Shown here: positions 16,468 to 32,786 of the stretch, piece by piece
How positions within the stretch are numbered: position 1 is the first letter of the stretch
Layout: each line of letters opens with the position of its first letter
IMG/VR virus record: IMGVR_UViG_3300044815_000221
Coordinates: 1-55,968 of that record
Strand: one strand, 5' to 3'
From: a virus
Length of the DNA: 55,968 nt
Translations under genes and position numbers: made by a program
The notes under the pieces: model-generated
Seen by the model: the letters and a program-made list of their open reading frames with translations, nothing else
What the model was told of the DNA's origin: nothing
Databases searched by the model: none

Positions 16468-16653
16468 TTAAGGGCAACCGAAAAGATTTACCTGGGTATT
16501 GAGTAACAGTTTGATAAACGCGTGTACCCTGTGGCCCGCGCGGATCAGGAACGGGCGTGTCGGATCGCAGCAGTTGGCGCAGAGCCAACTGGTCTTGATA
16601 TGTCGCCAGGTGTAAATCTCAGTGCCCGGCAATTTAGCTTTCCGGTTTTTCAT
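16468..16653 (-). CDS. Small hypothetical protein overlapping the MuF C-half stop
   Basis: A 61-aa frame whose ATG overlaps the stop of the MuF C-terminal half (AAATGA), suggesting coupling. It contains a Cys cluster (SWLCANCCDP). Another frame over the same bases (16406-16588) looks equally gene-like, so a frameshifted gene is possible. From here to 16204 I see no gene, only a short perfect hairpin (GATCAG-tcaag-CTGATC on the minus strand). Confidence 0.35.
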   Translation of the reverse strand: MKNRKAKLPGTEIYTWRHIKTSWLCANCCDPTRPFLIRAGHRVHAFIKLLLNTQVNLFGCP

Positions 16654-17168
16654 TTCCGACTCTCTTTCGCTCTCTTCGCTCCAGCTTCGATGACCTCTCC
16701 AAGTCCACCCTGCGCTGGAATCCCTTTGAACTTTCCGACATTCAAATCATAAACCGCAGTTCCTACTTCAGCTTTGGCAGGGATGCCGCTCTTATCGTAA
16801 ACAAGCTCGGCCTCACCGCTCGGATTCTGATGATTATATCCAGTCGGCATCTTCGCCATCGCCGTCACCGTGCAGCGACAGTTAAATCCCCAGGGCGGAT
16901 AATGTTCATTCCAGAATTCGTGATCCGCAGGAAGGGTTAAACCATCGAGAGCGCGATGACGTGGCCGTGTCCGGTCATCGAGTACCGCGTGATACTGCCA
17001 CAAAGGTAAGTCAGCCGCGACTTCTTCAAACGCCTGTCGTCGCCCAACCCCATACGCAACTTGGCAGTTAGTTCTGTTAAAACTGTGGCCCAAACGGACG
17101 CCGCCCCGAACCATTCCCCTCATCACTAAAGTCAACGTCATCGCGGGCGTTGCTGCTGTTGCGCTCAT
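16650..17168 (-). CDS. MuF head morphogenesis protein, C-terminal half (gene split by cassette)
   Basis: Homology to MuF/SPP1 gp7 minor head proteins begins only at about 17081 (RTNCQVAYGVGRRQAFEE) and continues through YHAVLDDRTRPRHRALDG to HYPPWGFNCRC, the signature of the MuF C-terminal domain. Residues before that are translated from the end of the tube-initiator gene in another frame and are not MuF. The missing N-terminal half lies 9.3 kb away at 26273-26962. Whether this half is translated alone is unknown. Confidence 0.85.
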   Translation of the reverse strand: MSATAATPAMTLTLVMRGMVRGGVRLGHSFNRTNCQVAYGVGRRQAFEEVAADLPLWQYHAVLDDRTRPRHRALDGLTLPADHEFWNEHYPPWGFNCRCTVTAMAKMPTGYNHQNPSGEAELVYDKSGIPAKAEVGTAVYDLNVGKFKGIPAQGGLGEVIEAGAKRAKESRK

Positions 17169-17607
17169 TCAATTCTTGATGCTCAAGTAATTGCAGGCTA
17201 ACGCGGGCGCGCAACGGTTCACCAAACGAATTGAAAAAGGTTTCCTCAATGCGAATTTCTTCAACTACCACAGGACGCACTTCTCCATCTTCGCCATAGA
17301 TAGCTAGCAACAATGGCGGCGTGCCGTTCTTCGTCTCATGGTGTAATTCCAGAAGGGCGTTGATGTCGTCTCTAATGGATTCGCCCGAATCTGTCTTATC
17401 AAGCCATAGCTCATCAATGCTAAGGCGTTGCGGGTCGCGGTTGGTGTAGGCAATAGGCTTCACGCCAATCGTCGTATTCTGTTGCTCCCAGTTTGCCCTT
17501 GCCAGCGTGCTGATGGAACGGGGAAAGAAATCAAAAACGAAAGCATTGACCTTGCCGCCTCGTGGCTCGGCAAATGCCAAGAGAAATTTTCCAAGTTGCG
17601 TTGACAA
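17077..17607 (-). CDS. Tube-initiator (CIS_tube-type) protein (module 2)
   Basis: A 176-aa paralogue of 4461-4964, with the same FVFDFFP, RANWE, DPQRLSIDELWLDKTDSG and FGEPLRARVSLQLLE blocks. The start is a TTG (STQLGKFLL) with AGGAGG ten bases upstream; the longer frame overlaps the spike gene. Here the gene is last in its module instead of second, and its TAA stop is part of the junction with MuF. Confidence 0.72.
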   Translation of the reverse strand: MSTQLGKFLLAFAEPRGGKVNAFVFDFFPRSISTLARANWEQQNTTIGVKPIAYTNRDPQRLSIDELWLDKTDSGESIRDDINALLELHHETKNGTPPLLLAIYGEDGEVRPVVVEEIRIEETFFNSFGEPLRARVSLQLLEHQELNERNSSNARDDVDFSDEGNGSGRRPFGPQF

Positions 17608-17608
17608 T

Positions 17609-18073
17609 TTAACCAGACCTCCTGCCATTAAGAAATATGCCGCCAGGTGCGATGATTCGCAGAGAGGCATCTGTCTCAATGTGTGCGCGTCCGGCGCGCA
17701 GTTGATAATCACCTTCACAAATATGCTTTAAGTCAGCAGGCGCACGCACACCGCATACAGCCGTATCCCTGAAATCTGCCGGAACAACGAAGTCTTCGCC
17801 GTAAACGCTCATATAATAAAGATTGTACCGTTGGCCTAAGCGTCCGAATAAAACAACCTCGCTTCTAACAGGTGGAACGTAGAAGCTGCCGAAGCCATTG
17901 CCGCCGACAAAAACGCCAACCTGTTTTACCCACTTGTCATAAATAGTGCTTTCATCAATCGCGGGAATATACACCTTGATGCGATGTTGATTCTCAGGGT
18001 CTTCATTGATGGCAACGATGCCTTCAAGACCAAAGAAGTATTTATCGTCTAAATCGCGTCTGCCGTTTCTCAT
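17609..18073 (-). CDS. Baseplate spike protein, gpV type (module 2)
   Basis: A 154-aa protein closely similar to 2684-3178: EGIVAINEDPENQHRIKVYI, FGSFYVPPVRSEVVLFGRLG and DFRDTAVCGVRAPADLKHI. The conservation of the OB fold and spike base argues that the cassette copy is functional. It is followed two bases later by the tube-initiator TTG. Confidence 0.82.
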   Translation of the reverse strand: MRNGRRDLDDKYFFGLEGIVAINEDPENQHRIKVYIPAIDESTIYDKWVKQVGVFVGGNGFGSFYVPPVRSEVVLFGRLGQRYNLYYMSVYGEDFVVPADFRDTAVCGVRAPADLKHICEGDYQLRAGRAHIETDASLRIIAPGGIFLNGRRSG

Positions 18074-18091
18074 CTACTTAACCCTTTTAAG

Positions 18092-19141
18092 CTACTCATC
18101 AATATCTCGGTATAGAATATAGTCAGTTGAAAATCCGCTGCCTGTTAAGTCATGCCTGATAGTGTCAATCAGATAAAGACCGCTCAGAAGATCACCAAAG
18201 CCAACGAGCTTTACAGTGTCACGAACATCAGAGCGCACAAGCGGCAAAGGTGGAATCGTGCGAACATTTGCGGAGAAGGCATGTTCACGATGCAGTTGCT
18301 TCCTCGCGTGAGCTTTCGTATCCGCGTATGTCTTGGTGTGAATCTCAAGGTCTTTCTGAACATCCAAATGCGTTACCCCGCGACGATGAACCTCAGACCT
18401 GCCAGTAAGCCGCCTGCCACCGCGCCCGCGTCCGCGCATCTCCACCTCAGATGGCCGCCCCTTCACGTTTTCAGGAATCTTATGAGTGAAATCAAACTGT
18501 TGTAAGATTCCAAATTCTTTTCGGTTGAGTGAGTAAGCGTCACTATGATTGGCTAGAGTAAGCGAAGGCGTTTTTGCCGTGTGTGCAGGCTCTTTCGCAT
18601 ACAACGTATCGCCGCGTACATAAAGAACCAGCCCCGCCGATTCAGCCCGCTCCATTGCAAGTTCCCAATCGGAATGCCCCGCCTGCATCATTGCCGAGTG
18701 TCGCTCATGTCGAAATGGTTTATCAGGCGCTTCAAACTTTAAGCCGTTTCGCTCTGCCAGCTTCTTAATGATTTCAACGTCGCTCAGTTTGTTGTGATAG
18801 CCAGTCTTCTTATGCTTGTGCATCTGGCTTCCCATGTCATAAGCGACGAGGGTTGTATCAAAGTCGTTGCGCTCCGTTCGATTGAGCAAGCCCTTAAAAA
18901 TAAACTCGCCCAAATCCATACCGAAGCCGAGCCAGAATCGCATCGGTAAATTGGTAAGCGCATTCTTAGTTGTGAAGCGATTGAGCAGCTTAAAGTCAGG
19001 GTCAAAGATTCTGAAATGTGCCTCAGAAATTTTATTAGTGGTTAGCTCGACGGTGACTTGCTGGATGAGACTCGGATGCTTCCATGAATCGAAAATTTCA
19101 CCGTTTACATCAATAATGGCGTGGGCGTTATCAGGAATCAT
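18092..19141 (-). CDS. Late control D-type tail hub protein (module 2)
   Basis: A 349-aa paralogue of the module 1 hub, sharing IFDSWKHPSLIQQVTVEL, DWELAMERAESAGLVLYVRG, the R-G-R-G-R-G-G motif and HARKQLHREHAFSANVRTI. It differs throughout, so it is not a recent duplicate. It overlaps the LysM gene upstream by 4 bp. Confidence 0.85.
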   Translation of the reverse strand: MIPDNAHAIIDVNGEIFDSWKHPSLIQQVTVELTTNKISEAHFRIFDPDFKLLNRFTTKNALTNLPMRFWLGFGMDLGEFIFKGLLNRTERNDFDTTLVAYDMGSQMHKHKKTGYHNKLSDVEIIKKLAERNGLKFEAPDKPFRHERHSAMMQAGHSDWELAMERAESAGLVLYVRGDTLYAKEPAHTAKTPSLTLANHSDAYSLNRKEFGILQQFDFTHKIPENVKGRPSEVEMRGRGRGGRRLTGRSEVHRRGVTHLDVQKDLEIHTKTYADTKAHARKQLHREHAFSANVRTIPPLPLVRSDVRDTVKLVGFGDLLSGLYLIDTIRHDLTGSGFSTDYILYRDIDE

Positions 19142-19389
19142 ACAGAACCAAACCGCCCTTCATCGCGTGGCCTATTTGGAATAAGCAGAATTGTTCCAGC
19201 AGGTATCTGTCTTACGTCTATGATGTTGTTCCTGTCTGCAATAAGCCTCCAAAGTCGCCAGTCATCATAGAAGCGATGTGCCAGTCCCGTAAGCGTGTCA
19301 GCAGCCTTAAAAACATATTCCTCAAGATAAGCGTCGGATTCCGGCGATAGCCCGCCGTAGCGTTCGTATGGTGATATTGAACGGCTCAT
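19138..19389 (-). CDS. LysM-domain tail adaptor (module 2)
   Basis: An 83-aa single LysM domain, strongly similar to 4213-4464 (SISPYERYGGLSPESDAYL, then ADTLTGLAHRFYDDWRLW). It lies directly after the tape measure gene, with the tube-initiator gene absent from the position it has in module 1. Confidence 0.85.
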   Translation of the reverse strand: MSRSISPYERYGGLSPESDAYLEEYVFKAADTLTGLAHRFYDDWRLWRLIADRNNIIDVRQIPAGTILLIPNRPRDEGRFGSV

Positions 19390-19391
19390 TG

Positions 19392-21899
19392 CTACGCGCC
19401 TCTCTCTTCGTCTCTATCTTTCTCTTCCGCAATCATGCGCGCCAATTGTCGCGGGTTAAGATTTGAGGCATTGTTAATCTTGATGTCGTACCGATGATGA
19501 TGCGTGTGATGATGCACTCCCCCGCGCGATTCTCTTGCAGAGAGCGATGAATCTGCATATTGACCAGACTCGCGCTGTGGCCTGCCGCCATACATTGCAT
19601 GTATAAGCTCAACTCCACGATCAGGCCGAACATAGCCATGAAGCGAGCCTTGAATTACCGTTGCCCCTTCCTTCTGGTCGCCAGTTGGCGGCGGGTTTGT
19701 TGGTGAAGCATTATTCAGCCGCGAAGCTGAATTGATAATGCTTTCAGTTAGGGTTTTTGACGCCTCTCCTACACTTAAAAAGGCATCGGGAACGGGCAAC
19801 ATCTTTAATTGAAGCTGCTCGAATAGCTGATTGGTTGGTGCTAATTGCTGGCTGAGATTCTGAATCTCTTGAGTTGTTTGCTGCGTCGCTTGGCGGTAGC
19901 TCTCAGGGAAAGCCATCTCAAGAGTTTTTGCCATCATGCCAAACTCATCGGGTTTAAGCTTACTTTTGGTAAGATTAAGAAACTCCCGCATCACATCCGG
20001 CACGGAAAGTTCTTGATGATGTTGCTGAAAATCTGCGGCGGCAACAGGGGCGCTCCAACGCCCTCCGAAGGTGTAAGGGTTCTGCGGTTGAAGCGAAGCG
20101 GCACGCACGACACTCTCAAGCATGTTCACAGTGCGACTACCCTTGAAGGCATCTCCCATGTAATCAATCGTATCGGTTTCGCCAAAATTCCCTACAAGCT
20201 TATCGCGCTTTGAGATGTCAGCCCACGCTGTTTGTGCGTTAGACTTATAAAAATCTTGAGGAACGGGCTGGCCTAACTCAGCATAATGCTTCCGCAGCTT
20301 AAGCAGTGATTTTAGATTGCCGCTGTTCGCGCTATCGGCACCTCTCTGCGCTTCATCAGCAGCGTTTTCGGCCTCGACGTGCTCAATAATTTTGCTGACT
20401 GTATAGACGGTAGCTATTGTGAGACCAATCGGACCAAGCGCACTCAGCGTCCCAAGCTTAGTCAACAGCCCACCTACCGACGCACCTGCACCGCCCGCCT
20501 CCCCACTCAAGCCAGCGAAATATCCGACCAACCCTGAGCCTTTCAAAATAGCGGCAGTTTCAGCGAGAGCAGACAACCCTTTGCCGCCCACAAGAACCGC
20601 AACAGCCCACTTCGCCGCCGTCGGATGCTCTCCAAAAATCTTAACGACAGGCGTTAATGAATCAACAAGTTTGGTTCCAGTTTCTACCAGAGGCTCGCCA
20701 ACTTTCGTCCTGAAATTTTCTAATGCTGCCGTGAACTTCTCAATTTTACCCATTGGCGAATCTAACGCCTGATCGTATGCTTGTCCGATGTCCTTAGATT
20801 TCTCAGTCATTCCTGATTCTTTTAGGACTTGATTCCTTTGCGTGGTAAGCAGGCTCATCATGCGAAAGGCGGTATTCTTCTGGAAAAGCCTGCCTAGCTC
20901 CGCACGCACAGCGTTATCATCGGCGGTATTGATGCCGTGAGTTTTCATCGCCCCCATGAGCATATCGGCGGCTTCTAAGGGGTCGCGCATGAACGGCTCT
21001 GCCAGCTTGTTACCACCTGGAAGAATCCGTTTTATCTTCTGCGCCTTGCCAAACTGAACTTTATTTTTATCAACCAACCCAAGCCGCGAAAATTCCTCTG
21101 CCGCGTATTGAGGCATCACACCTGTTACCAAAGCGCGATAGGATGCCTGCAAAGCCGTTCCCGCTCCTGCTCCTTTCAGTTCCATCAAAACGCTTTGCAT
21201 GTGGCGCAAGCCTTCAACGGATAAACCCTGAGCAGCAGGCGAACCCATGCGAGCGAAATCAAACAACTCCGTAGGAGAAACTTTTCCAGCGCGTGCAGTC
21301 TGCATCTGCACCATCACGTTGAAAAACTTCTCCATCTCATCGCGCCCCTTCGAAACCTTCCCTGTCACTTCAAGAAAGCGGAAAGCTGCGTCGGTTTGCT
21401 TTTCGACTTCTTCGGGGCTGTATTGATCTCCGAGCAGGGTCTTAAGAGAGAATTGATATTTTGAAGCAAGTGGTAATGCTTCTATGGCGTGATCTAAGCT
21501 GCCGAGTGCGGTATGGAGCGTTGCTATCTCAGTGGTCGCATCCGCTAGAGAGATGCCCTGAATGTTCTTGACGGTTTCTTCAACGGCCTTAAATGCGCGT
21601 GCATTCTCAGCAGGGGAAAGATTGATAGCCTGAAACTTGCCCTGTGCTCTGGCAAGTTTCATGTAGGCGTCGGTATAGACGCTCAATGAATCGGCTTGAC
21701 GACGCCACACATCGCCCACGCGGGACAACGGAGCAATGACCCTATCGTGGAGCGAAGCGAGATTGCCGAGAACTCCGGCGTGCTTCGTAGCCGCTCCACC
21801 TAACCTCCCAAGCCGAGCCTCGAATTTATCAAGGCCCTGTGAAGCGCGGTCTTGCAGGCTCAGGAGTATCTTTAGTTCGTATGTTTCACTTCCCGCCAC
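19392..21899 (-). CDS. Tail tape measure protein (module 2, 835 aa)
   Basis: Starts at GTG (AGSETYELKILLSLQDRAS) overlapping the chaperone extension by 14 bp, the usual layout. Residues about 185-375 are almost identical to the module 3 tape measure, while the flanks diverge. A membrane-prone stretch lies around residues 430-500. The C-terminus has a His-rich HHHTHHHRYDIKIN segment, similar in place to the HHINVNYSPKIEI end of module 1. Its length would set a slightly longer tail than module 1. Confidence 0.88.
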   Translation of the reverse strand: MAGSETYELKILLSLQDRASQGLDKFEARLGRLGGAATKHAGVLGNLASLHDRVIAPLSRVGDVWRRQADSLSVYTDAYMKLARAQGKFQAINLSPAENARAFKAVEETVKNIQGISLADATTEIATLHTALGSLDHAIEALPLASKYQFSLKTLLGDQYSPEEVEKQTDAAFRFLEVTGKVSKGRDEMEKFFNVMVQMQTARAGKVSPTELFDFARMGSPAAQGLSVEGLRHMQSVLMELKGAGAGTALQASYRALVTGVMPQYAAEEFSRLGLVDKNKVQFGKAQKIKRILPGGNKLAEPFMRDPLEAADMLMGAMKTHGINTADDNAVRAELGRLFQKNTAFRMMSLLTTQRNQVLKESGMTEKSKDIGQAYDQALDSPMGKIEKFTAALENFRTKVGEPLVETGTKLVDSLTPVVKIFGEHPTAAKWAVAVLVGGKGLSALAETAAILKGSGLVGYFAGLSGEAGGAGASVGGLLTKLGTLSALGPIGLTIATVYTVSKIIEHVEAENAADEAQRGADSANSGNLKSLLKLRKHYAELGQPVPQDFYKSNAQTAWADISKRDKLVGNFGETDTIDYMGDAFKGSRTVNMLESVVRAASLQPQNPYTFGGRWSAPVAAADFQQHHQELSVPDVMREFLNLTKSKLKPDEFGMMAKTLEMAFPESYRQATQQTTQEIQNLSQQLAPTNQLFEQLQLKMLPVPDAFLSVGEASKTLTESIINSASRLNNASPTNPPPTGDQKEGATVIQGSLHGYVRPDRGVELIHAMYGGRPQRESGQYADSSLSARESRGGVHHHTHHHRYDIKINNASNLNPRQLARMIAEEKDRDEERGA

Positions 21900-22056
21900 G
21901 CCTGACCTCGCTTATCTCTTCGACGATCTCTAAATATCCATTGCGCCGTTCAATAGACATCTCAAGGATGTCAGATTCTTTCCAATGAAATTCTCTGGAT
22001 AGAATCGCCACCGTGTAGGCTGTCGTCTTCCTGAATCTTTTTTCTGCTTTTGCGAA
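21886..22056 (-). CDS. T-type extension of the tail assembly chaperone, reached by frameshift (module 2)
   Basis: Frame without its own start, offset +1 (or -2) from the chaperone gene. It encodes FAKAEKRFRKTTAYTVAI, LSREFHWKESDILEMSIE and RRNGYLEIVEEISE; the FHWxxxDILEMS motif is typical of T domains. The likely site TCT-TTT-CGC (22052-22060) matches TCG-TTT-CGC in module 1. An A-AAA-AAG run ten bases later is an alternative site for a -2 shift. The extension ends inside the tape measure start. Confidence 0.72.
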   Translation of the reverse strand, partial: FAKAEKRFRKTTAYTVAILSREFHWKESDILEMSIERRNGYLEIVEEISEVRRGGK

Positions 22057-22663
22057 AAGATTCCCGCCACCTACGGGCGGCGGCTTCTAAAGCGAAAATA
22101 TCAACCATGTCAAACTGCTTGAAAACTTCTAAATCAAGAGCGCCCTCAATGCGGCCTGCCCCCTCTGATTGTGAAAGCCTGACGACCTGCTGCCCAGCCA
22201 GATAACAAAGCCGCTTGACACCTTCCAGTTCGAGTTTGTCGGCTTCAAGTTCGTGCAGGCCGGTGAGACGCACGCCGAACGTCACCACGTCATAAACAGC
22301 GCCGTTGACTTCATGCCCGAAGGCAAGTTTGACCGTATCATCCGACAGGGACTCGGCAACACGTCCGCCAAGACCGCTCGCAGAAAAGAGATTGTAAGCC
22401 GCCGACAAATCATCTCTATCAATGGCATCCAAATGGAGTAGCCATAATTGAGTAACGGGCATTTTGGCTTCCCCGAATTTAGTAATAGCTTTGGCAAGAA
22501 TCATGTCGCTATAAGTCGTCGCAAGCTTTGCTCGCGGGTCGTCGCCAATGTAAAAAAGGTCAAGCCCTGTTAAGCGATGGCCGAAAGTAACGTCCTTATG
22601 CACCTTGCCTTGCCTGTCCGTGTATCCAATCTCTAGCGTGATGTCGAGCGGTTCAACTTCCAT
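21971..22663 (-). CDS. Tail assembly chaperone, G-type (module 2)
   Basis: A 230-aa paralogue of 7798-8469, starting at MEVEPLDITLEIGYTD with AGGAGAG upstream. The duplicated beta pattern is clear (VHKDVTFGHRLTGLDLF and VYDVVTFGVRLTGLHEL). A longer frame extends through RNA copy C and in this copy is in phase with it. After the shift site the zero frame runs on only for a charged tail. Confidence 0.8.
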   Translation of the reverse strand: MEVEPLDITLEIGYTDRQGKVHKDVTFGHRLTGLDLFYIGDDPRAKLATTYSDMILAKAITKFGEAKMPVTQLWLLHLDAIDRDDLSAAYNLFSASGLGGRVAESLSDDTVKLAFGHEVNGAVYDVVTFGVRLTGLHELEADKLELEGVKRLCYLAGQQVVRLSQSEGAGRIEGALDLEVFKQFDMVDIFALEAAARRWRESFRKSRKKIQEDDSLHGGDSIQRISLERI

Positions 22664-22684
22664 CTGTTTCTCTCCTAATTTGTA

Positions 22685-22768
22685 AAAGTAAAAGCCCGCC
22701 AACCTTTTCAGGTCAACGGGCTGCATGAGCCGGTAGATACCGCAATTCAGGGACTGTGAAAGTCCGCG
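22685..22768 (-). ncRNA. Repeated structured leader RNA element, copy C (upstream of chaperone 2)
   Basis: Minus-strand reading: hairpin GGACT-ttcac-AGTCC (22751-22765), 19-nt linker, GGCTCATGCAGCCCG (two bases shorter than copies B, D and E), then a 12-bp stem with inner TTGACC/GGTTGG pairing and a U-rich tail (22693-22722). Because of the 2-base deletion the short upstream frame is altered and an ATG here reads through in frame with the chaperone gene. Confidence 0.62.
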
Positions 22769-22801
22769 AGATATTTGAATTGTTTATAGCACGCAGGCTA
22801 T

Positions 22802-23098
22802 CTAAGCGCCATTCCTTTGCTTCCCAAAGATTGCAAAAATAACAAGCAAAACAATCCCACCAAAGACGCCCCACACAACAAGAGCGGACATATGAGCGGA
22901 TTCAATTAAAAAGAGAGCCAAGAGATATAAAACCAAGAAAGCGAACCCCATCTTTACAAGTGCGGCCAGCGCGACGAGAACCGATAAAGCATTTGGCTTT
23001 TTAGGCACAGGCTTCCCACATTGCGGACACATCGCCGCCTGTGTTGAGACTTGCTTGCCGCAATCTGGACAGGTAACTAAAGGCATAACATTACTCAC
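22802..23098 (-). CDS. Zinc-ribbon membrane protein (cassette 2)
   Basis: A 98-aa protein: zinc ribbon CPDCGKQVSTQAAMCPQCG at the N-terminus, then two transmembrane helices (ALVKMGFAFLVLYLLALFLI and VVWGVFGGIVLLVIFAIFG). An ATG four codons in (MPLVTCPDCG) is an alternative start. The same design recurs at 7476-7637 and 55705-55968. It stands next to the repressor gene, where prophages often carry superinfection-type genes; function unknown. Confidence 0.7.
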   Translation of the reverse strand: MSNVMPLVTCPDCGKQVSTQAAMCPQCGKPVPKKPNALSVLVALAALVKMGFAFLVLYLLALFLIESAHMSALVVWGVFGGIVLLVIFAIFGKQRNGA

Positions 23099-23118
23099 TT
23101 CAAATTAGCGGACATTAA

Positions 23119-23334
23119 CTAATCGCTAGAGTCAGGCGAAAAAACAAGAAGATCATTAGGCTTACAGCGTAGCGTCTTACACAAAAGATCAAGCGTACCT
23201 ATTCCTATTTTCTCAAGATCGTTTCGCCACCATTTCGCAGCCATTGAGGGCTGAACGCTTGCAGCTTTTTGTAATTGATACGCAGTTGTAATACCGCGCT
23301 TCTCTGCCATCTCTCGAATAGCAATAGTAATCAT
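23119..23334 (-). CDS. XRE-type HTH repressor of cassette 2
   Basis: A 71-aa single-domain Cro/CI-like HTH protein: IREMAEKRGITTAYQLQ as helix 1, a recognition region VQPSMAAKWWRNDLE, and TLDLLCKTLRCKPNDLLVF as the last helix. It is divergent from the plus-strand operon, and the inverted repeat around the operon promoter is its likely operator. The cassette 3 repressor is a different XRE protein, so immunity specificity probably differs. Confidence 0.82.
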   Translation of the reverse strand: MITIAIREMAEKRGITTAYQLQKAASVQPSMAAKWWRNDLEKIGIGTLDLLCKTLRCKPNDLLVFSPDSSD

Positions 23335-23390
23335 AGAAAGAATCCTAACATTCGCTCCACATTACGTAAAGAAAAAATATCCTTCTAGCG

Positions 23391-23443
23391 ATTACTTGCA
23401 GACGCATTATCTCTTGACATAATAATACGTCTAGGAGTAATAT
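23391..23443 (+). promoter_or_regulatory. Cassette 2 operon promoter with operator arms
   Basis: TTGACA (23414-23419), 18-bp spacer and TAATAT (23438-23443) form a strong sigma70-type promoter. It is bracketed by an inverted repeat ATTACT-nnn-AGACG (23391-23404) and CGTCT-nnn-AGTAAT (23428-23441), which fits repressor control by the adjacent HTH protein. The transcript would start about 55 bp before the 48-aa peptide gene. Confidence 0.7.
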
Positions 23444-23503
23444 AAGCATGTCAGTTGGACGTAACAACAAACCACTTTTGCAGAACTCAAGGAGACAAAG
23501 AAA

Positions 23504-23650
23504 ATGAATCGCACGATGAACCAAACCTCAATCAACATCAGCACCACGAACGCCAAGCCGCAGACAGTCAACGCCATCAAGAAAGTCATGGTCTATGACC
23601 TGAGAGGGCAGGGGCGCGCGATTGAGAAGGTGCGTGGGATTCAAGTATAG
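23504..23650 (+). CDS. Conserved 48-aa peptide, first gene of cassette 2 operon
   Basis: ATG with AAGGAG nine bases upstream; 48 codons. Core sequence NAKPQTVNAIKKVMVYDLRG is identical in the cassette 3 copy (32623-32769), and the shared sequence extends about 50 bp into the leader. Polar, Asn/Thr-rich N-terminus and basic C-terminus, no cysteine or membrane segment. Conservation across otherwise different cassettes implies an important role, perhaps in regulation or element transfer; unknown family. Confidence 0.75.
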   Translation: MNRTMNQTSINISTTNAKPQTVNAIKKVMVYDLRGQGRAIEKVRGIQV

Positions 23651-23676
23651 CGGGAGGGGATTCCGCTAAAGAGGGG

Positions 23677-23706
23677 GGCTGGCTGGATATGGGCATCCAG
23701 CCAGCC
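23677..23706 (+). other. Perfect 12-bp mRNA hairpin after the peptide gene
   Basis: GGCTGGCTGGAT and ATCCAGCCAGCC flank a 6-nt loop. No U-run follows, so it is not a standard terminator; it may stabilise the peptide mRNA end or reduce read-through. Cassette 3 lacks it: there the next gene follows the peptide stop by 17 bases. Confidence 0.55.
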
Positions 23707-23744
23707 TCTACACCATTAACCACAACTGTTCGGAGGGGATAACG

Positions 23745-24293
23745 ATGCCAAAAGATTCTACAACACAAGAACATAAACCGCCTGAGATTTGGGTATTCCA
23801 CCCCATTGACAGCAGCGAGGCGAGAGGATTAGCCGAAGTCATCTCAAACAGAATCAACCTGTGGGAGCGTGGAGGTATAGCAGGGTTGCTTATCAAGCTC
23901 CTTGCTGGCTTGGCTGCGAATTGTGACGGTTCAGGAAATGAAAGTTGTGGGTGCGCTGTTGAAGATGTCACATGGCACGCGCTCTTTGAGTTCTTCAAGA
24001 CAACCCAAAAGTTTAATGACACGTTCCATGATTACGTCGTCAACGATTTAAAGATCGCGCACGATTTCAGGAAAGAGGAAGAATCCGAGCCAGTAGCGCA
24101 GCCGGAACGCAAGATGCACTTTGAAGGAACGCTTGAGCGCATCGCCTACATCATCGGCAAGACGCGCTTTCTACTCACAGACCAATGCGAACTAACCGAC
24201 GATGAAGCATTAGGGAAAATCCGCGACTTAATCTCGGAGATGGACTGGCGAAAGGAGGGCGCGGGCGATGAAGAAGAGGCGACCAATAACTGA
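23745..24293 (+). CDS. Hypothetical protein of cassette 2 operon (182 aa)
   Basis: ATG preceded by GGAGGGG. Acidic, soluble, mostly helical protein with a Cys-rich patch (ANCDGSGNESCGCAVED, about residues 64-80). Family not recognised. The C-terminal third (LERIAYIIGKTRFLLTDQCELTDDEALGKI) resembles in character the helical DDEALMRIRDELLDVD end of 51158-51691. It overlaps the next gene by 26 bp. Cassette 3 has different genes at this place. Confidence 0.6.
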   Translation: MPKDSTTQEHKPPEIWVFHPIDSSEARGLAEVISNRINLWERGGIAGLLIKLLAGLAANCDGSGNESCGCAVEDVTWHALFEFFKTTQKFNDTFHDYVVNDLKIAHDFRKEEESEPVAQPERKMHFEGTLERIAYIIGKTRFLLTDQCELTDDEALGKIRDLISEMDWRKEGAGDEEEATNN

Positions 24294-24630
24294 CCGCGAA
24301 ATAAGAGCCGCAGTCTTAGAAGCTCAGTTTATCGCATTGGTCATTGAGCACCCGCAAACGCCCGCGCACATTTTAGAGACGGTTAAATACATGGTGCTCG
24401 GCGCTTGTGAGGGGATAGCTAAATACTTGAAAGACCACAACCCCGACGCACAGATGGCGCATGACATTTACCCTTACGGTAGGGCGGCATTAGGCGTCCC
24501 CATGAAGAAGTGCTTCAAAATCTTCATGGAACAGGTTAAGAGTGATGCGCCCAACGTCTTACTCTCAATCATGGAGTCATTACCAAAAAGCGAGGCAAAG
24601 AACGATGAACCTAGCAATCAAACTAAATAG
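24268..24630 (+). CDS. Hypothetical protein of cassette 2 operon (120 aa)
   Basis: ATG with GGAGG upstream inside the preceding gene's end. Helical protein, no membrane segment, with a segment AAVLEAQFIALVIEHPQTPA. Not recognised. Overlaps the downstream zinc-ribbon gene, so the operon is tightly packed in phage style. Confidence 0.55.
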   Translation: MKKRRPITDREIRAAVLEAQFIALVIEHPQTPAHILETVKYMVLGACEGIAKYLKDHNPDAQMAHDIYPYGRAALGVPMKKCFKIFMEQVKSDAPNVLLSIMESLPKSEAKNDEPSNQTK

Positions 24631-24904
24631 CAACCCCAATCCTGAGCCTTGTCCACTTTGCGGTCAAGAGACTAACCCTAACATCGGCGCAGAGCTAACA
24701 CTGGCTGAGAATGAGCTAGTCGTTTGTCGTGACTGCGGCCTGACTCACGCGCCCCTGCTCGTCTCACTTCTCACGCTTGGTTTTCTCGCCACCGATTACA
24801 GCCTGTGTGAACGCGACTACGGCGACCTCTGGCAAGCCTCGCGTGAAGCTAGTCCGCGTGAAAGCCTGAACTGGAATCAACACTTGGAAGCTGATGCGGC
24901 ATGA
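24605..24904 (+). CDS. Zinc-ribbon protein of cassette operon (99 aa, cassette 2)
   Basis: Starts at MNLAIKLNSN, matched by the start in cassette 3 where a GGAGG is well placed. CPLCGQETNPN and VVCRDCGLTHAP form a zinc ribbon. Almost identical to 34183-34482. Probably a nucleic-acid or protein-binding accessory factor. Stop overlaps the next start (ATGA). Confidence 0.7.
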   Translation: MNLAIKLNSNPNPEPCPLCGQETNPNIGAELTLAENELVVCRDCGLTHAPLLVSLLTLGFLATDYSLCERDYGDLWQASREASPRESLNWNQHLEADAA

Positions 24905-25137
24905 GCGCGGCGATTCTCAACATCAATCTCATCAAGCATCCGTTGGATACTTATTTCGTGAGGTTTGGCGGCTCGATTCTAGTGGTAGATAGAGCCGCCA
25001 TTACAGATGATGGAGATACGGTGATAGTCAGACTTCACGATCAACTCATGGTTACAACACTCAACATTAAAGATGGTAGCGAGCGCGTTGATTATGAAGT
25101 TTGGGGCAAGGTTGCTTATTTCATCTTTGAAGCGTGA
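24901..25137 (+). CDS. Small S24/UmuD-like fold protein lacking the catalytic serine (cassette 2)
   Basis: A 78-aa protein with the pattern GGSILVVDRAAITDDGDTVI then VRLHDQLMVTTL, like the core of LexA/UmuD (GDLLIVDR...DGDIVVA). The usual Ser-Met motif is absent, so it is not a working peptidase. Nearly identical to 34479-34715. May act as a dimerising or decoy subunit; weak assignment. It directly precedes the endonuclease gene. Confidence 0.5.
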   Translation: MSAAILNINLIKHPLDTYFVRFGGSILVVDRAAITDDGDTVIVRLHDQLMVTTLNIKDGSERVDYEVWGKVAYFIFEA

Positions 25138-25142
25138 AGGGA

Positions 25143-25169
25143 AGGGGCGCACCGTAAAAATGCGCCCCT
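25143..25169 (+). promoter_or_regulatory. Hairpin just upstream of the cassette 2 endonuclease start
   Basis: AGGGGCGCA and TGCGCCCCT form a perfect 9-bp stem with a 9-nt loop. The purine-rich 5' arm is the only Shine-Dalgarno-like sequence before the endonuclease ATG at 25179, so the stem would mask it. The cassette 3 endonuclease has an open GAGGGG site and no such stem. Confidence 0.55.
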
Positions 25170-25178
25170 ATTAACACA

Positions 25179-26318
25179 ATGAGAAATCAATTATTAGATT
25201 GTCAAATATCGGAAATTTGTCGGCGGTATCAGGCTGGCGAATCCGCCTCATCCCTTGCAAGAGCATTCAGCGTGAACCATGAAACAATTTGCAATCGCCT
25301 TACTTGGTCGGGCATCAAGCTTCGCAGCCATAAAGAGTCGGCAGCATTAACCGGAAACTTATCCCAACATCAAATCGCTGAAATGGCATCGCTCTACCGC
25401 TCAGGCTCAACAACGCCTCAACTGGCGTCACGATATAAAATCAAGCCTCAATCAATTTCGTATCATCTCAAAAAGCAGGGCGTAGAGTTACGGGAAAGAC
25501 CCGAAGCGCGGCGCAAACATACATTAAACGAAGCGGCGTTTGATTCCCTGAATGAAGAAGGCGCGTACTGGATTGGCTTCTTGATGGCAGATGGTTGTGT
25601 CCATAAGAGAAATGGTGCTTCTCCGCGCATCTCAATAGCTTTAGCGCGTTGTGATATTGAACATCTTGAAGCATTCAAGATGTTCTTAGGAGCATCTAAC
25701 CCAATACACATAGACGGAAATTGCGCTTGCTTTTCGGTTTCCTCAAACAAGCTTTCAAACTCTATTGCAAGATATGGAATCACGCCAAGAAAATCTTTGA
25801 CGGCTAAAGTTATTGACCTTGAACAGAGCAAAGATTTCTGGCGCGGAGTAATTGATGGCGACGGCTCACTGTCAGACATTCAGAGATATTCAGACCTTAA
25901 AACCAAACATAGAACTCAATTATCCCTGCTAGGCTCTCAAGCTTTGATGGAGCAATTTTCGTTATTCGTTCAAAGCATCGCCAACTTCAAGCCTAAAACT
26001 TTTCAGCTTGGAAACATCTTCACGGTGGTTATCAGAGGGGCGACAGCCGCACAAGTTGTAACTGCGCTTTACGCGGATTGTTCGATTGCCCTTCCTAGAA
26101 AACTAAAAAGAGCAAAGAGGATAATTGAAGATTCAAAGAATATCGCACAACGTAAATGCCTAAGATGCGGGCATGTGTGGTTTCCAAATGCAAACAACCA
26201 AGCACCTAAAACATGCTCAAAATGTCGCAGCCAATGCTGGAACATCTCAAAACCTCAAAAGCATTTGCCAATTCATAATGAAGCCAAAAGCTTCTTTAAC
26301 CCAACCTTGCCGCAATGA
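25179..26318 (+). CDS. LAGLIDADG homing endonuclease with N-terminal HTH repeats and C-terminal zinc ribbon
   Basis: A 379-aa protein. Residues 1-105 hold two Hin-like HTH repeats (QISEICRRYQAGESASSLAR and QIAEMASLYRSGSTTPQLAS). Two LAGLIDADG motifs follow: YWIGFLMADG (130-139) and WRGVIDGDG (221-229), each with its acidic residue, so a monomeric double-motif nuclease. A zinc ribbon (CLRCGHVW...CSKC) ends the protein. It is on the strand opposite MuF, with its 3' end overlapping the MuF N-half. The neighbouring MuF segment is the natural candidate target. Confidence 0.85.
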   Translation: MRNQLLDCQISEICRRYQAGESASSLARAFSVNHETICNRLTWSGIKLRSHKESAALTGNLSQHQIAEMASLYRSGSTTPQLASRYKIKPQSISYHLKKQGVELRERPEARRKHTLNEAAFDSLNEEGAYWIGFLMADGCVHKRNGASPRISIALARCDIEHLEAFKMFLGASNPIHIDGNCACFSVSSNKLSNSIARYGITPRKSLTAKVIDLEQSKDFWRGVIDGDGSLSDIQRYSDLKTKHRTQLSLLGSQALMEQFSLFVQSIANFKPKTFQLGNIFTVVIRGATAAQVVTALYADCSIALPRKLKRAKRIIEDSKNIAQRKCLRCGHVWFPNANNQAPKTCSKCRSQCWNISKPQKHLPIHNEAKSFFNPTLPQ

Positions 26319-26962
26319 TACGCCGCTCGCATATTCTTTCTAAATAGCACTTCCAAGTGAAGCGGGCTTATCGGATGGCACTCAAAAGTTTTGTCAAAAA
26401 TTGTCTCAAGGTGAAACGCTCCAAGCTGCGCCTGACTCGCGCCGTCGAGAATTTCACGAAAGCGTTTAATGGTCTCGCGCTGCGGCGTGCCCTCTTCGAG
26501 TGCGCGTGCAATCTCCGTCTTAAATCCTTCGAGAACGTCATCGCGATAGATGCCGCCAACTGTAAAGGCCGACGCACGCGCTTCATCGCGCAAGTCATCA
26601 AACTCTTTGCGCGTGACAACTTTCTTCCTGCGGAAATACTCAATCGCCTTTGTCGGGGCAACGTCGAACTTGAAGAAATCCTCTTCAGCGAACTCAACCT
26701 GATCGTTGACCTCCGACACCTGATCGCGCCCCAACAGATAAGACGCCAACAATCCATCGCCGAGCACTTCAAAAAGAAGATCGAATGAACCAATAAACTT
26801 TTCAAAGAACAGGGCTGGCAACTTCGCCAGGTTCTCTTGCTTTTCAAGATGGACGATGATTTCGCCTAACGCTTCATCGTAGAAGGGCGCAGCTTCTCGA
26901 AGCGTTCCATCTTCAAAGGCTCGCCGTCGCCCAACCCCATAAGCGACCTGCATGTTCGTCAA
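26273..26962 (-). CDS. MuF head morphogenesis protein, N-terminal half (gene split by cassette)
   Basis: Residues about 90-195 match the MuF/SPP1 gp7 N-domain: FKFDVAPTKAIEYFRRKKVV, ARASAFTVGG, RFREILDG and GAFHLETIFDKT. There the family sequence breaks; the last 32 residues read into the cassette, opposite the endonuclease gene, and include a second MuF-like piece (HLEVLFRKNMRAAY). The first 18 residues (TNMQVAYGVGRRRAFED) are a copy of the sequence that starts the C-half, so MuF target sequence flanks both ends. The start codon is only a TTG. Confidence 0.8.
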   Translation of the reverse strand: MTNMQVAYGVGRRRAFEDGTLREAAPFYDEALGEIIVHLEKQENLAKLPALFFEKFIGSFDLLFEVLGDGLLASYLLGRDQVSEVNDQVEFAEEDFFKFDVAPTKAIEYFRRKKVVTRKEFDDLRDEARASAFTVGGIYRDDVLEGFKTEIARALEEGTPQRETIKRFREILDGASQAQLGAFHLETIFDKTFECHPISPLHLEVLFRKNMRAAYHCGKVGLKKLLASL

Positions 26963-27252
26963 ACACGCTCGAAAGTTCCGCTCTCAAGCGGCCTTTGCGG
27001 AATCAACAGGAGCGTTCCCGCTTCGATTTGCCGCACGTCCGCGATCCTGTTGCGCTCGGCGATCAAGCGCCACAATCGCCAGTCTGAATAAAAGCGATGC
27101 GCTAAACCTGTCAGCGTGTCGCTTCCTCTGAAAATATATTCAGTACCTGTCAGCGTGTCGCTTCCTCTGAAAATATATTCAGTCAGATAAGCATCCGTCT
27201 CCGGCGACAACTCACCGTAGCGTTCGTATGGGCTAATGCTGCGCTTGCTCAT
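26959..27252 (-). CDS. LysM-domain tail adaptor with internal duplication (module 3)
   Basis: A 97-aa paralogue of the other LysM proteins (SISPYERYGELSPETDAYL, then GLAHRFYSDWRLW). A 13-residue unit TEYIFRGSDTLTG occurs twice in tandem, encoded by a 39-bp exact repeat, which lengthens the first strand of the LysM domain. The gene follows the hub gene here, the reverse of modules 1 and 2, and its TGA stop forms the MuF junction. Confidence 0.82.
   Translation of the reverse strand: MSKRSISPYERYGELSPETDAYLTEYIFRGSDTLTGTEYIFRGSDTLTGLAHRFYSDWRLWRLIAERNRIADVRQIEAGTLLLIPQRPLESGTFERV
27106..27183. repeat. 39-bp exact tandem duplication inside the LysM gene
   Basis: Two identical 39-bp units (27106-27144 and 27145-27183) keep the frame. 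Exact identity points to a recent slippage event, or to an assembly duplication. Confidence 0.85.
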
Positions 27253-28343
27253 TCCTCTCCCTCAATATCGGCATAAAGGTCATATTCAGTTGTGAAGCCT
27301 GCGGCAACGAGGTCGTGCGTAACCTTGTCGCAAAGGTACAATCCAGAAAACAGACTGCCAAATTCACGAAGTTCAACAGTATCACCAACATCAGCCCTCA
27401 CGCTTGGAAGCTGCGGAATTGTGCGAACGGTGCAGGAGAAAGAGTGTTCACGTTGAAGCTGTTTTTTTGCATGTGCAACGCGGTCAGCATAGCTTTGAGT
27501 GTGGTTCGCAATATCTTTCTGTAAAAAGACGTTGCCTGTGCCGCGCTTGTGCTTCCGAGATTTGCCGACGAGTGATTTACCGCCATGCCCGCGCCCGCGC
27601 ACTTCAACCACAGACGGACGCCCCCGCTTATTTTCAGGAAGCTTATAACTGAGGTCAAAGGGGCGGAGCAGCAACGCATCTTTTCTATAAGTCAAAACTA
27701 TTAATGGCTTTCTTTTGACTATGGCTGGCTCTTTTGCAAAGAGCGTATCACCTCTTACATAAAGAACGAGGCCGATTTCTCGCGCCCGCTCACTAGCCAA
27801 GTCCCAATCGGTTTGACCAGCCTGCATGTAAGAACGGTGGTGTCCTATCCTAAACTCTCTGTCAGGTCCTTCAAACTTTAGCTCACTACGTTCAGCGAGC
27901 TTCTTGAGAATTTTAAGGTCATCTCCCTTGTGGTATCCGGCATGTTCCATCTGCCGCATTTTGTAGCCCATATCATAGGCTCTTAAAGTTATGTCCGTTT
28001 CACTCTTTTCTATCCGCGCCAGCATCCCCTTGAAAACAGGCTCTCCCAATCCTTGACCAAAACCCATCCAGCAGCGCATCTCAAAAGGCAGAACTTCTTT
28101 TATTCCTAAAAGGCTGTCAACGAATTTGCCCGTTGAATCAAAGACCCTGAAAGCCGCCTCTGATGCCATGCCCGTTGTTAGCTGAACGGTAACTTGCTTG
28201 AACAGTCGAGGATGCCGCCAAGAATCCCAAACCTGCTGCCGAAGGATGATTTTGTCACCATGCTTGTCACGCGCATACTTGCCATGCTCATCATGTTTAT
28301 AAACCGTCAATTCTATTGCGGCGTGTGGGTTGTCGGGCGTCAT
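27249..28343 (-). CDS. Late control D-type tail hub protein (module 3)
   Basis: A 364-aa hub paralogue: QVWDSWRHPRLFKQVTVQLT, DWDLASERAREIGLVLYVRG, the R-G-R-G-H-G-G motif and HAKKQLQREHSFSCTVRTI. It has an extra charged stretch near the N-terminus (YKHDEHGKYARDKHGD) that modules 1 and 2 lack. It overlaps both neighbours by 4 bp. Confidence 0.85.
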   Translation of the reverse strand: MTPDNPHAAIELTVYKHDEHGKYARDKHGDKIILRQQVWDSWRHPRLFKQVTVQLTTGMASEAAFRVFDSTGKFVDSLLGIKEVLPFEMRCWMGFGQGLGEPVFKGMLARIEKSETDITLRAYDMGYKMRQMEHAGYHKGDDLKILKKLAERSELKFEGPDREFRIGHHRSYMQAGQTDWDLASERAREIGLVLYVRGDTLFAKEPAIVKRKPLIVLTYRKDALLLRPFDLSYKLPENKRGRPSVVEVRGRGHGGKSLVGKSRKHKRGTGNVFLQKDIANHTQSYADRVAHAKKQLQREHSFSCTVRTIPQLPSVRADVGDTVELREFGSLFSGLYLCDKVTHDLVAAGFTTEYDLYADIEGEE

Positions 28344-30961
28344 CCTTCACCCCTTTCTCTATACCTATCTATCCGGTTTGAAAGTCGCGCCTCAACTATG
28401 TTTGTAAGTTGGTGTGCGTGTTCTTCAAGCAACGCCGCGAACTGTTGAGGGCTGCTGCCATCGCCTTTGATTTCAAGTTTCGGAGAGTAGGTAATATGAA
28501 CGTGCGTATCTCCGCCTTTCATAAGACCCCTTGCAAGACCTGCATTGAGCGCGGATGTGTTTAATTTAGACGGAGGATATTCAAATGTATTTTTGCCAAG
28601 CAGATTCAATGACGGAATCGGCGCAGGCGTGGGAGTAGGGCTTGGCTGAACCCCGCCGCTCGGTAAAGGAACATTATTCAATCGTGAGGCTGAGTTATTG
28701 AAGCTATCGGTTAAAGAGGTGGCCGCGCCTCCCAAATTGGAGAAGCTGGAAGGAAGAGGAAATAGCTGCGATTGAAGTTGACCGAAATACTGATTAGTAG
28801 GTATCAGTTGTTGGCTTAAATTCTGAAAACCTTCGGTTGCTTGTTGGGTTGGCTGTCTCAACCCCTCTATCTCTTTTTGATACTCCTGCCATGCCTTAGA
28901 GAATCCAACCGGAAATTCCTTTTGCAGTGACTTGTAAAGGTCGGGCGTAGCCTGTGGTGTCAAGCCAAGCTTGCCTAACTGGGCAAAGGCTTGGCGCATC
29001 ACTTTAGGGTCGTCGAGCATTGGCGCAACATGCCTAAAAATTCCGCCTGCTTTATCAGGGTCAAACGTATTAAATACATTCCAACGTGAGCCATAGGGGC
29101 GGTCAGCAGTCCAAGCATGGCCCCAGAAGCCTCCGAACTTTTCAGGCATGAGTGCAGATTCTAGTTCCTGCTTTCGATTTATTGCTTCAACTGCTTTTTG
29201 AGCAAGACCCCTTGAATCATCTCCCGATGTGTCTATCCCAAGAAGGCGGTTTGACCGTTGCCGCGATTTATAATCTGCAAACGACTCGCCCGATGATTTC
29301 GCAAAGTCACGCCTATCAGCCTCTCGCTTATCGTATTCGTCTTTTAATTCGAGCAGCTTTTCTAACGCCATCCCTGCAACCGTAAGCTTCAATGCCACAG
29401 TGAACGGCGATGATGTCAAAGATGTGAGCTTGCCTTTTAGACCCGATAATTTGCTTTCGGTTGACTTGATGGCATCACTAACAACGGGTGTTGATTTCTG
29501 CCATGCGCTTGTAAAGCCGATTGTTCTTTTCTCAGCCACTACTAATGAATCGCCTAGCCCTCTAGCTCCTTTGTCGCTATTGGAGAAGAAGCTGAATAAC
29601 TTAGAAGTGCCGAGAATGGTTGCCGTTTCTGCTATTCCACCTAATGCCTTACCACCGACAATCAGCCCTAAAGACCAGTTCGGATGATCGGACATCCATT
29701 GAAAGAAAGGCAAAGCTTTGGTTGCTAATTGCGTTCCAACTTCAACAAGCGGCTTCCCAACGCCAGCGCGAAAATTCTCAACCGACGCCTTATACTGTTC
29801 AAGCTTGCCCTGTGCCGAATCTAGCGCTTGCTTATTAAGCTCATCAACGCCTGTTGATTTTTCGGCAAGCCCAGATTCTTTTAAGACTTGATTCCTTTGC
29901 GTGGTAAGCAGGCTCATCATCCGAAAAGCAGTACTCTTCTGGAAAAGCAACCCTAGCTCCGCGCGAACAGCGTTATCATCGGCGGTATTGATGCCGTGAG
30001 TTTTCATCGCCCCCATGAGCATATCGGCAGCTTCTAAGGGGTCGCGCATGAACGGCTCTGCCAGCTTGTTACCGCCAGGTAGAATCCGTTTTATCTTCTG
30101 AGCCTTACCAAACTGAACTTTGTTTTTATCAACTAACCCAAGCCGCGAAAATTCCTCTGCCGCGTATTGCGGCGTCACGCCAGTAACCATAGCGCGATAA
30201 CCTGACAGCAAAGCCGTTCCCGCTCCCGCTCCTTTCAGTTCCATCAAAACGCTTTGCATGTGGCGCAAGCCTTCAACAGATAAGCCCTGAGCGGCAGGCG
30301 AACCCATGCGAGCGAAATCAAACAACTCAGTAGGAGAAACCTTTCCAGCGCGTGCAGTTTGCATCTGCACCATCACGTTGAAATACTTCTCCATCTCAGC
30401 GCGCCCCTTCGCAACCTTCCCCGTCACTTCAAGAAAGCGGAAAGCTGCGTCGGTCTGCTTTTCAATCTCTTCTGTGCTGTATTGATCTCCAAATTTAGCC
30501 TTAAAGCCAAACTCGTACTTAGTAGCAAGAGGCAAGGCTTCAATGGCCTCATCTAAACTACCGAGTGCGGTATGTAGGGTTGTTATCGCGGTTGTCGTGT
30601 CCGTGAGGGAGAGGCCGCCCAAACTTTGTACGTTTTTTCGGACGGCATCAAACGCCTTCGCGTTGTCAGATGGTGATAGATTTATAGCCTCGAACTTACC
30701 TTGCGCTCTCAAAAGCCTCATGTAAGCATCGGTGTAATCCTCAAGAGAATCAATTCGATTCTTCCAAACAGAACTAACACGCGCAATAGGGTCAAAGACT
30801 TCGTTGTGAAGCTTTGAGAGATGGCCGAGCGTTCCGGCATACTTCGCCGTCGTCCCGCCTAGCCCGTGAAGCTTCTTCTCGAATTTATCAAGCCCCACCG
30901 ATGCCCTATCTTGGAGGGATAGCAGAATTGATAATTCATATACTGAACCTGAATTTCCCAT
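28340..30961 (-). CDS. Tail tape measure protein (module 3, 873 aa)
   Basis: Longest of the three tape measures. The N-terminus YELSILLSLQDRASVGLDKF matches modules 1 and 2. Residues about 185-375 are nearly identical to module 2, with divergent ends. The C-terminus HVHITYSPKLEIKGDG resembles module 1 instead (NVNYSPKIEITGGDP), so the gene is a mosaic. It starts 12 bp after the chaperone stop. Confidence 0.88.
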   Translation of the reverse strand: MGNSGSVYELSILLSLQDRASVGLDKFEKKLHGLGGTTAKYAGTLGHLSKLHNEVFDPIARVSSVWKNRIDSLEDYTDAYMRLLRAQGKFEAINLSPSDNAKAFDAVRKNVQSLGGLSLTDTTTAITTLHTALGSLDEAIEALPLATKYEFGFKAKFGDQYSTEEIEKQTDAAFRFLEVTGKVAKGRAEMEKYFNVMVQMQTARAGKVSPTELFDFARMGSPAAQGLSVEGLRHMQSVLMELKGAGAGTALLSGYRAMVTGVTPQYAAEEFSRLGLVDKNKVQFGKAQKIKRILPGGNKLAEPFMRDPLEAADMLMGAMKTHGINTADDNAVRAELGLLFQKSTAFRMMSLLTTQRNQVLKESGLAEKSTGVDELNKQALDSAQGKLEQYKASVENFRAGVGKPLVEVGTQLATKALPFFQWMSDHPNWSLGLIVGGKALGGIAETATILGTSKLFSFFSNSDKGARGLGDSLVVAEKRTIGFTSAWQKSTPVVSDAIKSTESKLSGLKGKLTSLTSSPFTVALKLTVAGMALEKLLELKDEYDKREADRRDFAKSSGESFADYKSRQRSNRLLGIDTSGDDSRGLAQKAVEAINRKQELESALMPEKFGGFWGHAWTADRPYGSRWNVFNTFDPDKAGGIFRHVAPMLDDPKVMRQAFAQLGKLGLTPQATPDLYKSLQKEFPVGFSKAWQEYQKEIEGLRQPTQQATEGFQNLSQQLIPTNQYFGQLQSQLFPLPSSFSNLGGAATSLTDSFNNSASRLNNVPLPSGGVQPSPTPTPAPIPSLNLLGKNTFEYPPSKLNTSALNAGLARGLMKGGDTHVHITYSPKLEIKGDGSSPQQFAALLEEHAHQLTNIVEARLSNRIDRYRERGEG

Positions 30962-30973
30962 TGCTCTTTATCT

Positions 30974-31639: not shown

Positions 31640-31664
31640 GATTCGTTCCTTTCGATGTGATAAA

Positions 31665-31750
31665 TAAGAAAAAGCCCGCCAACCTTTTCAGGCCAACGGG
31701 CTGCACATGAGCCGCTAATGATCGCTATTTAGGGACTGTGAAAGTCCGCA
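31665..31750 (-). ncRNA. Repeated structured leader RNA element, copy D (upstream of chaperone 3)
   Basis: Minus-strand reading: hairpin GGACT-ttcac-AGTCC (31733-31747), 19-nt linker, GGCTCATGTGCAGCCCG and a 12-bp stem with inner TTGGCC/GGTTGG pairing and U-rich tail (31673-31702). A six-codon frame M-C-S-P-L-A ends in the loop. Upstream hairpin and stem are nearly the same as copy C, consistent with common cassette ancestry. Confidence 0.62.
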
Positions 31751-31793
31751 AGATTTCGGGATGAATATAGAGCGTGAGAGATATTAGAGCAAA

Positions 31794-32433: not shown

Positions 32434-32443
32434 ATGTCGAAGT

Positions 32444-32769: not shown

Positions 32770-32786
32770 GTAGCGGGAGGGGAACA

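Follow-up and report, generated by a model that had tools for sequence, protein, structure and literature searches.

Homing endonucleases have already been said to carry essential gene modules: in the HEG-islands of phages (Barth, Dunham and Seed 2023; PMC10448857), homing endonuclease genes (HEGs) adjoin essential modules including tail operons, and the nuclease class can be exchanged while the cargo is kept. These islands are the nearest known concept to the locus described here, the split MuF head gene of a Mu-like virus (IMG/VR virus record IMGVR_UViG_3300044815_000221; positions 1 to 55,968, all 55,968 bases of which are called the window), in which a first cassette, C1, interrupts MuF and a second, C2, interrupts the portal gene. 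The cassettes resemble the islands in the features just named. They differ in having one nuclease at one end rather than HEGs on both flanks of the cargo, in a codon-exact MuF border with the native module retained, where the islands have no discrete borders and exchange a cognate module, and in carrying as cargo an additional tail module, with its own repressor, inside a head gene.

Other described systems share parts of this arrangement. The free-standing Seg and Mob endonucleases of T4, which home without an intron (PMC2988022), also involve DNA break repair with co-conversion of the flanks, but what moves there is the nuclease with flanking markers; no regulated structural module of 9 kb is carried into another gene. 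An intein has been reported in the minor head protein of a Mu-like cryoconite phage (PMC7468147), and such MuF inteins, including one in our contig L079, lie in the same gene; a cassette in another contig, L004, occupies the NCRC site of the L079 intein and has a related nuclease. The protein is restored by splicing in those cases, whereas the window cassette leaves MuF split. SegB-driven segmental amplification (PMC13096335) is alike in that a homing endonuclease causes extra copies of neighbouring genes, but it is a repeat expansion under defence pressure, whereas C1 and C2 occupy separate sites and have diverged. Satellites with tape measure and baseplate hub genes lack most other tail genes (PMC10448857), as the cassettes do, but have integrases and attachment sites, neither of which was found in the window cassettes. 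An earlier note on this DNA had offered the movement of virion gene modules by a homing nuclease as a new idea, in which the HEG-islands precede it. What sets the present case apart from this known ground is that an extra tail module under separate regulation is added at exact sites, with two cassettes in one genome.

The MuF halves lie about 9.3 kb apart, as the earlier note had stated, with a clean cut between HLETIF and RTN made by 9.32 kb of DNA (17076-26395). Its account of a repressor and of a plus-strand operon also held: the last operon gene encodes a double-motif LAGLIDADG protein (LAG1) and overlaps the end of the N-half open reading frame (ORF). The uninterrupted MuF that it proposed to look for was found in nine related contigs (L003, L075, L082/G007, L084/G008, L085/G009, L087, L088, L123 and L124), two of which are Acidobacteria metagenome-assembled genomes (MAGs). 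The halves are contiguous in L003, with the N-half at 5507-6022 and the C-half running from residue 3 at 6026. The insertion of C1 is codon-exact, with no visible loss or duplication of MuF sequence. Both halves are open, and their ratio of nonsynonymous to synonymous differences (pN/pS) to relatives is 0.23-0.30, somewhat higher than between intact relatives (0.15 for the MuF C-half, L003 versus L075).

A transposon or integrase element was considered and rejected, since no terminal repeats or target duplication were found at the cassette junctions (where end repeats are no longer than chance) and no integrase or transposase domain was found among the cassette ORFs searched in Pfam. An intron or split intein at the junctions was also rejected: there was no Rfam match in the whole window at the gathering score and none of intron type at E <= 1 in 22700-27300, and reading the translated halves by eye revealed no intein splicing motifs at the MuF breakpoints, such motifs being present in L079. 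These results bear equally on the view that MuF is a fractured gene, rebuilt by split inteins or a trans-spliced intron so that the insertion is neutral. Fractured genes with nucleases are known, and the L079 intein lies in MuF; however, no intein motif was seen in the window halves, no Rfam intron appeared at either threshold, and the N-half reading frame runs only ~40 residues past the breakpoint before a stop. We regard this as the least probable of the explanations, with hardly any weight.

The window reads from right to left in a Mu-type layout: Mu transposase, AAA ATPase (at the MuB position), GemA, terminase, Mu portal, MuF, protease, major capsid, sheath and tail, of which terminase, protease, capsid and sheath were named from gene position, from the relatives and by inspecting the translations. 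Mu transposase, GemA, Mu portal and MuF, by which we recognize a Mu-like phage, are all present. The virus is Mu-like with hosts of the Acidobacteria type; the relatives that occur in bacterial genomes come from Acidobacteria MAGs, including one of Pyrinomonadaceae. No end repeats of the 55,968-base record were found. The core without C1 and C2 measures 37.7 kb, which is close to the size of phage Mu, and the window is probably such a Mu-like prophage or phage core plus two related cassettes of ~9 kb. Core and cassettes together make 56 kb, ~1.5 times the core, for which a Mu-sized headful would be too small. The native tail module (T0) is intact and located where relatives keep theirs, so that one genome holds three tape measures and three hubs (T0, C1 and C2). 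Because T0 (2163-7336) is still present, the tail genes of C1 and C2 are extra. A 'complete set of tail-core genes', as the earlier note had it, is too strong a description of the cassette: the sheath gene, like the tube and wedge genes that one would expect next to it, is confined to the native late region.

There is also not one cassette, as previously supposed, but two paralogous ones; C2, the native tail module and a MuF remnant at the C2 end go beyond that first account. C1 and C2 have in common the order tail module, repressor, divergent plus-strand operon (with a zinc protein and an S24/UmuD-like protein) and LAGLIDADG gene. Each has a single nuclease, at the right end, and no second nuclease was seen at the left ends; the key cargo beside it is tape measure, hub and spike at LAG1, and tape measure and hub at LAG2. 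The tape measure proteins (TMPs) of C1, C2 and the L004 cassette group together in a clade (support 100/100) that excludes every native tape measure, TMP0 among them, and the hub tree agrees with this more weakly. Between C1 and C2 the nonsynonymous to synonymous rate ratio (dN/dS) is 0.29 for the tape measure, 0.22 for the chaperone, 0.04 for the zinc protein and 0.09 for the S24 protein, while synonymous sites are saturated for hub, X and nuclease. The cassette genes are under purifying selection. LAG1 and LAG2 are only 43% identical, yet stretches of neighbouring operon DNA are 88-94% identical (94% for C1 23451-23660), so the nucleases have either been swapped or diverged separately. The cassette repressor may repress the nuclease operon, and the extra tape measure and hub would serve as alternative tail parts.

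Such a build could also belong to a satellite-like parasite. This would be a regulated unit spreading by homing or together with its carrier, whose virions it would redirect by providing a tape measure and hub of its own. The own repressor and the divergent operon with S24/UmuD-like proteins would fit a satellite, as would the purifying selection and the tape measure and hub without a sheath gene, as in the satellites of PMC10448857. Nevertheless, no integrase, replication or packaging genes were recognised in the cassettes, there are no attachment-site repeats, and cassettes have so far been found solely inside phage genomes. We consider this origin improbable.

C2 interrupts the portal gene within its final codons. 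The portal reading frame ends prematurely at 35895, and the C-terminal peptide that it would normally carry (MERFEKLRPSTMKR) lies at 26866-26910. Between this peptide and X2 lies a MuF remnant of 49 bases that starts, within one codon, at the C1/MuF junction codon; C2 was therefore most likely once at the same MuF site. The left junctions of C1 and C2 both have the MuF stretch, with 17-base identity. The motif TTGAAGATGG belongs to the native portal 3' end and is partly present in the MuF of a relative. Two further features of C2 were observed. X2 contains a perfect 39-bp tandem duplication (27106-27183) that adds 13 residues in frame, and two near-identical palindromic 17-mers (ATTAGGCCAATGGCCTA) at 32508-32558, between the repressor and the divergent operon, are a possible operator pair; this pair was not seen in C1.

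L004 is an unrelated contig from another metagenome with a cassette of the same kind inside MuF. Its order is terminase, portal, MuF, minus-strand nuclease, zinc protein (72% identical to that of C1), S24 protein, repressor, chaperone, cassette-type tape measure, hub and a second MuF C-terminus, which starts at NCRC; the MuF copy that lies upstream of the cassette ends in a short C-terminus of its own, and a native-type tape measure lies further along the contig. The cassette nuclease here is not a LAGLIDADG protein but of a helix-turn-helix (HTH) plus PD-(D/E)XK type (MTES_1575/DUF559). Its closest relative, 50% identical, is in L079, within an in-frame MuF intein at the same NC|RC position. 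Thus nuclease family and insertion site change together around a shared cassette core, and no other observation argues as strongly for the nuclease setting the site; nuclease type tracks insertion site, as homing predicts. The earlier proposal that the nuclease travels with about 9 kb of cargo gains from this independent cassette of the same build at an intein-marked site, as well as from the empty sites and the codon-exact insertion, and in our proposal the nuclease would cleave MuF and the cassette would be mobile and move in one step.

L004 also bears on whether the window is an assembly chimera of several related phages. The window is a metagenomic contig with three tail modules, and the MuF stretch common to the C1-left and C2-left junctions could be read in that light. 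No repeated 21-mer was found at any cassette junction, however, both MuF halves are open and constrained, and a cassette in MuF recurs in an independent contig. The unique junction k-mers and L004 together make a chimera quite unlikely, and we give it little more credence than the fractured gene.

In L079 (12148-13026), and also in L092 (4756-6360), a MuF-type gene contains an in-frame intein, and a PD-(D/E)XK nuclease gene on the opposite strand overlaps almost the whole intein. The overlapping nucleases use TTA, CTA or TCA in 0/41 (L079) and 0/31 (L092) of their Leu/Ser codons, compared with 17/38 in the non-overlapping L004 homologue; when set against the codon usage of core genes, this avoidance is by itself weak (p 0.21 and 0.02). 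The titles and abstract starts of the papers found in a literature search contained nothing obvious on such an intein/antisense nuclease overlap.

LAG1 has the motifs GFLMADG and IDGDG, with D138, G139, D226 and G227 invariant in 16 homologues. Its AlphaFold model (mean pLDDT, the predicted local distance difference test score, 84) has a LAGLIDADG fold: Foldseek matched it to I-Tsp061I, I-PanMI, I-AniI and other LAGLIDADG enzymes (E 1e-8 to 1e-7), and the top matches listed were all LAGLIDADG proteins. A sequence search of the PDB gave no match. The family to which LAG1 belongs (phrog_4645) is found in many other phages.

Taking these results together, we propose homing-endonuclease-driven insertion with flank co-conversion, plus microhomology repair for the second cassette; our probability for this, together with the composition of the window given above, is roughly 0.6. 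C1 would have reached MuF by homing: in a phage that lacked the cassette, the LAGLIDADG protein or an ancestor of it would have cut MuF at a conserved site near HLETIF/RTN, and repair of the double-strand break would have copied the cassette from a cassette-bearing relative, with the MuF flanks as homology and with flank co-conversion. The diverged MuF motif copy at the C1 right edge (LHLEVLFRKNMRAAY) is compatible with a co-converted donor flank. C2, most likely once at the same MuF codon, would have moved to the portal gene via one-sided repair at the microhomology TTGAAGATGG; one-sided repair of this type has been described for T4 introns (PMC2988022). The nuclease would be exchangeable, the insertion site shifting with it as in L004. 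Whether all this amounts to a distinct intra-phage mobile element, a repressor-controlled tail-module cassette with swappable homing endonucleases and codon-exact head-gene sites, which in two copies enlarges its carrier genome by half, is a suggestion that we make tentatively, at somewhat under even odds.

Several points weigh against this proposal. Only two cassette-bearing contigs, the window and L004, were found; the collection was scanned by short peptide patterns, which can miss relatives, and records very near the window were possibly left out. At MuF site A neither LAG1 nor LAG2 was found to have a homologue standing as a solitary gene, and none of the 69 LAGLIDADG loci retrieved holds a recognisable MuF of this group. 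The MuF remnant is absent from the C2 right end, and a 56-kb genome may exceed a Mu-sized capsid headful, so that the phage may be defective. Furthermore, the nuclease and the tail gene order are not the same in C1 and C2, which makes these cassettes mosaics and not copies of a single unit; a recent tandem duplication was rejected, as their synonymous divergence runs from 0.25 to saturation. This mosaic divergence would also suit illegitimate or homologous recombination among co-resident Mu-like prophages, which would have put a second tail module and an immunity-like region into head genes with the nucleases as later passengers. Tail modules recombine readily in phages, the tail gene order differs among C1, C2 and L004, and the C2/portal junction is at a microhomology. 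On the other hand, the left junction falls at the same MuF codon in two cassettes, the cassette tape measure lineage is separate from the native modules, and nuclease family and site change together between the window and L004, the L079 intein being an independent marker of the second site; under plain modular recombination the match of nuclease to site would have to be coincidence. We therefore judge recombination unlikely, although it is the most serious competitor of homing-driven insertion.

Table 1. Positions of the split MuF and portal genes, both cassettes and the native tail module in the window
Feature	Coordinates	Strand	Basis or remark
Native tail module T0 (TMP0, W, X0, D0, V0, W0)	2163..7336	-	position and TMP type as in L082, L084, L085, L086
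MuF C-half, start RTNCQVAYGVGRR	16650..17075	-	Pfam Phage_Mu_F E=4.7e-16; 74% identical to L003, joined there to N-half
Cassette C1, 9.32 kb, between HLETIF and RTN of MuF	17076..26395	.	empty site in nine relatives
W1, CIS_tube/LysM-type tail protein	17077..17718	-	Pfam CIS_tube E=1.2e-10; stop 1 nucleotide from MuF C-half
V1, baseplate spike (Phage_base_V)	17609..18073	-	Pfam E=6e-8
D1, tail hub protein	18092..19141	-	phrog_52 tail protein E=8e-12; D-protein tree
X1, small LysM-type tail protein	19138..19389	-	phrog_7145 baseplate wedge subunit E=3e-6
TMP1, cassette-type tape measure	19392..21899	-	phrog_28 E=2e-20; 100/100 clade with TMP2 and L004 TMP
C1 tail-assembly-chaperone-like protein	21971..22726	-	position; weak phrog_508 and Gp41_Mu matches
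C1 repressor (Cro/C1-type HTH_26)	23119..23334	-	Pfam E=1.6e-13
C1 divergent operon: 48-amino-acid ORF, two unknown genes, zinc protein (24605-24904), S24/UmuD-like protein (24901-25137)	23504..25137	+	
LAG1, double-motif LAGLIDADG nuclease, N-terminal HTH repeats	25179..26318	+	LAGLIDADG_3 E=4e-5; phrog_4645 E=1e-43
C1 right edge, diverged second MuF target motif (LHLEVLFRKNMRAAY)	26319..26395	-	tblastx to L003 MuF motif, 45%
MuF N-half, end HLETIF	26396..26818	-	phrog_220 E=6e-19; 69-71% identical to intact relatives, no stop codon
Portal C-terminal fragment (MERFEKLRPSTMKR), separated from portal by C2	26866..26910	-	matches native portal 3' end of L004, L003, L075
Cassette C2, 9.0 kb, in portal gene 3' end	26911..35893	.	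paralogous to C1
MuF remnant (TNMQVAYGVGRRRAFE), C2 left end, meets portal 3' end at TTGAAGATGG	26911..26959	-	sequence comparison
X2 (LysM-type)	26959..27252	-	
D2, tail hub protein	27249..28343	-	54% identical to D1
TMP2, cassette-type tape measure	28340..30961	-	867 bases of N-terminal part 86% identical to TMP1
C2 tail-assembly-chaperone-like protein	30974..31639	-	dN/dS 0.22 to C1 gene
C2 repressor (HTH_3)	32227..32469	-	Pfam E=1e-10
C2 divergent operon: UmuD-like S24 protein (32787-33218), three unknown genes, zinc protein, second S24-like protein	32787..34715	+	
LAG2, LAGLIDADG nuclease	34651..35892	+	43% identical to LAG1; true start may be downstream, ~34726
Portal (Portal_Mu), truncated by C2	35895..37352	-	Pfam E=5e-66

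The portal is at most ~30% identical to those of cultured phages, TMP1 is only ~25-27% identical to Burkholderia phages, and no relatives of D1 were found in cultured phages. No cassette-type tape measure was found in bacterial genomes, and among other viral contigs the zinc protein was found in L004 only. Three other loci in the collection were noted. A MuF C-terminal remnant in L177 (G006; 6430-8062) adjoins ORFs that, on reading of their translations, resemble TnpA and TnpB of the IS200/IS605 type. At 11311-11526 in L078 a Com-like gene directly follows the portal, and no MuF was found between them or elsewhere in that 21-kb contig. At the start of the 16.3-kb contig L003 (2-3066), a native-type tail module stands directly upstream of the portal and is possibly a further displaced module.

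Our results suggest that homing enzymes can bring entire tail modules, together with their regulation, to new sites. If this is true, homing endonucleases would insert whole regulated structural modules as additional copies elsewhere, beyond the exchange of cognate genes, and this would provide a concrete route for the mobility of tail modules and for the duplicated tape measures of phages.

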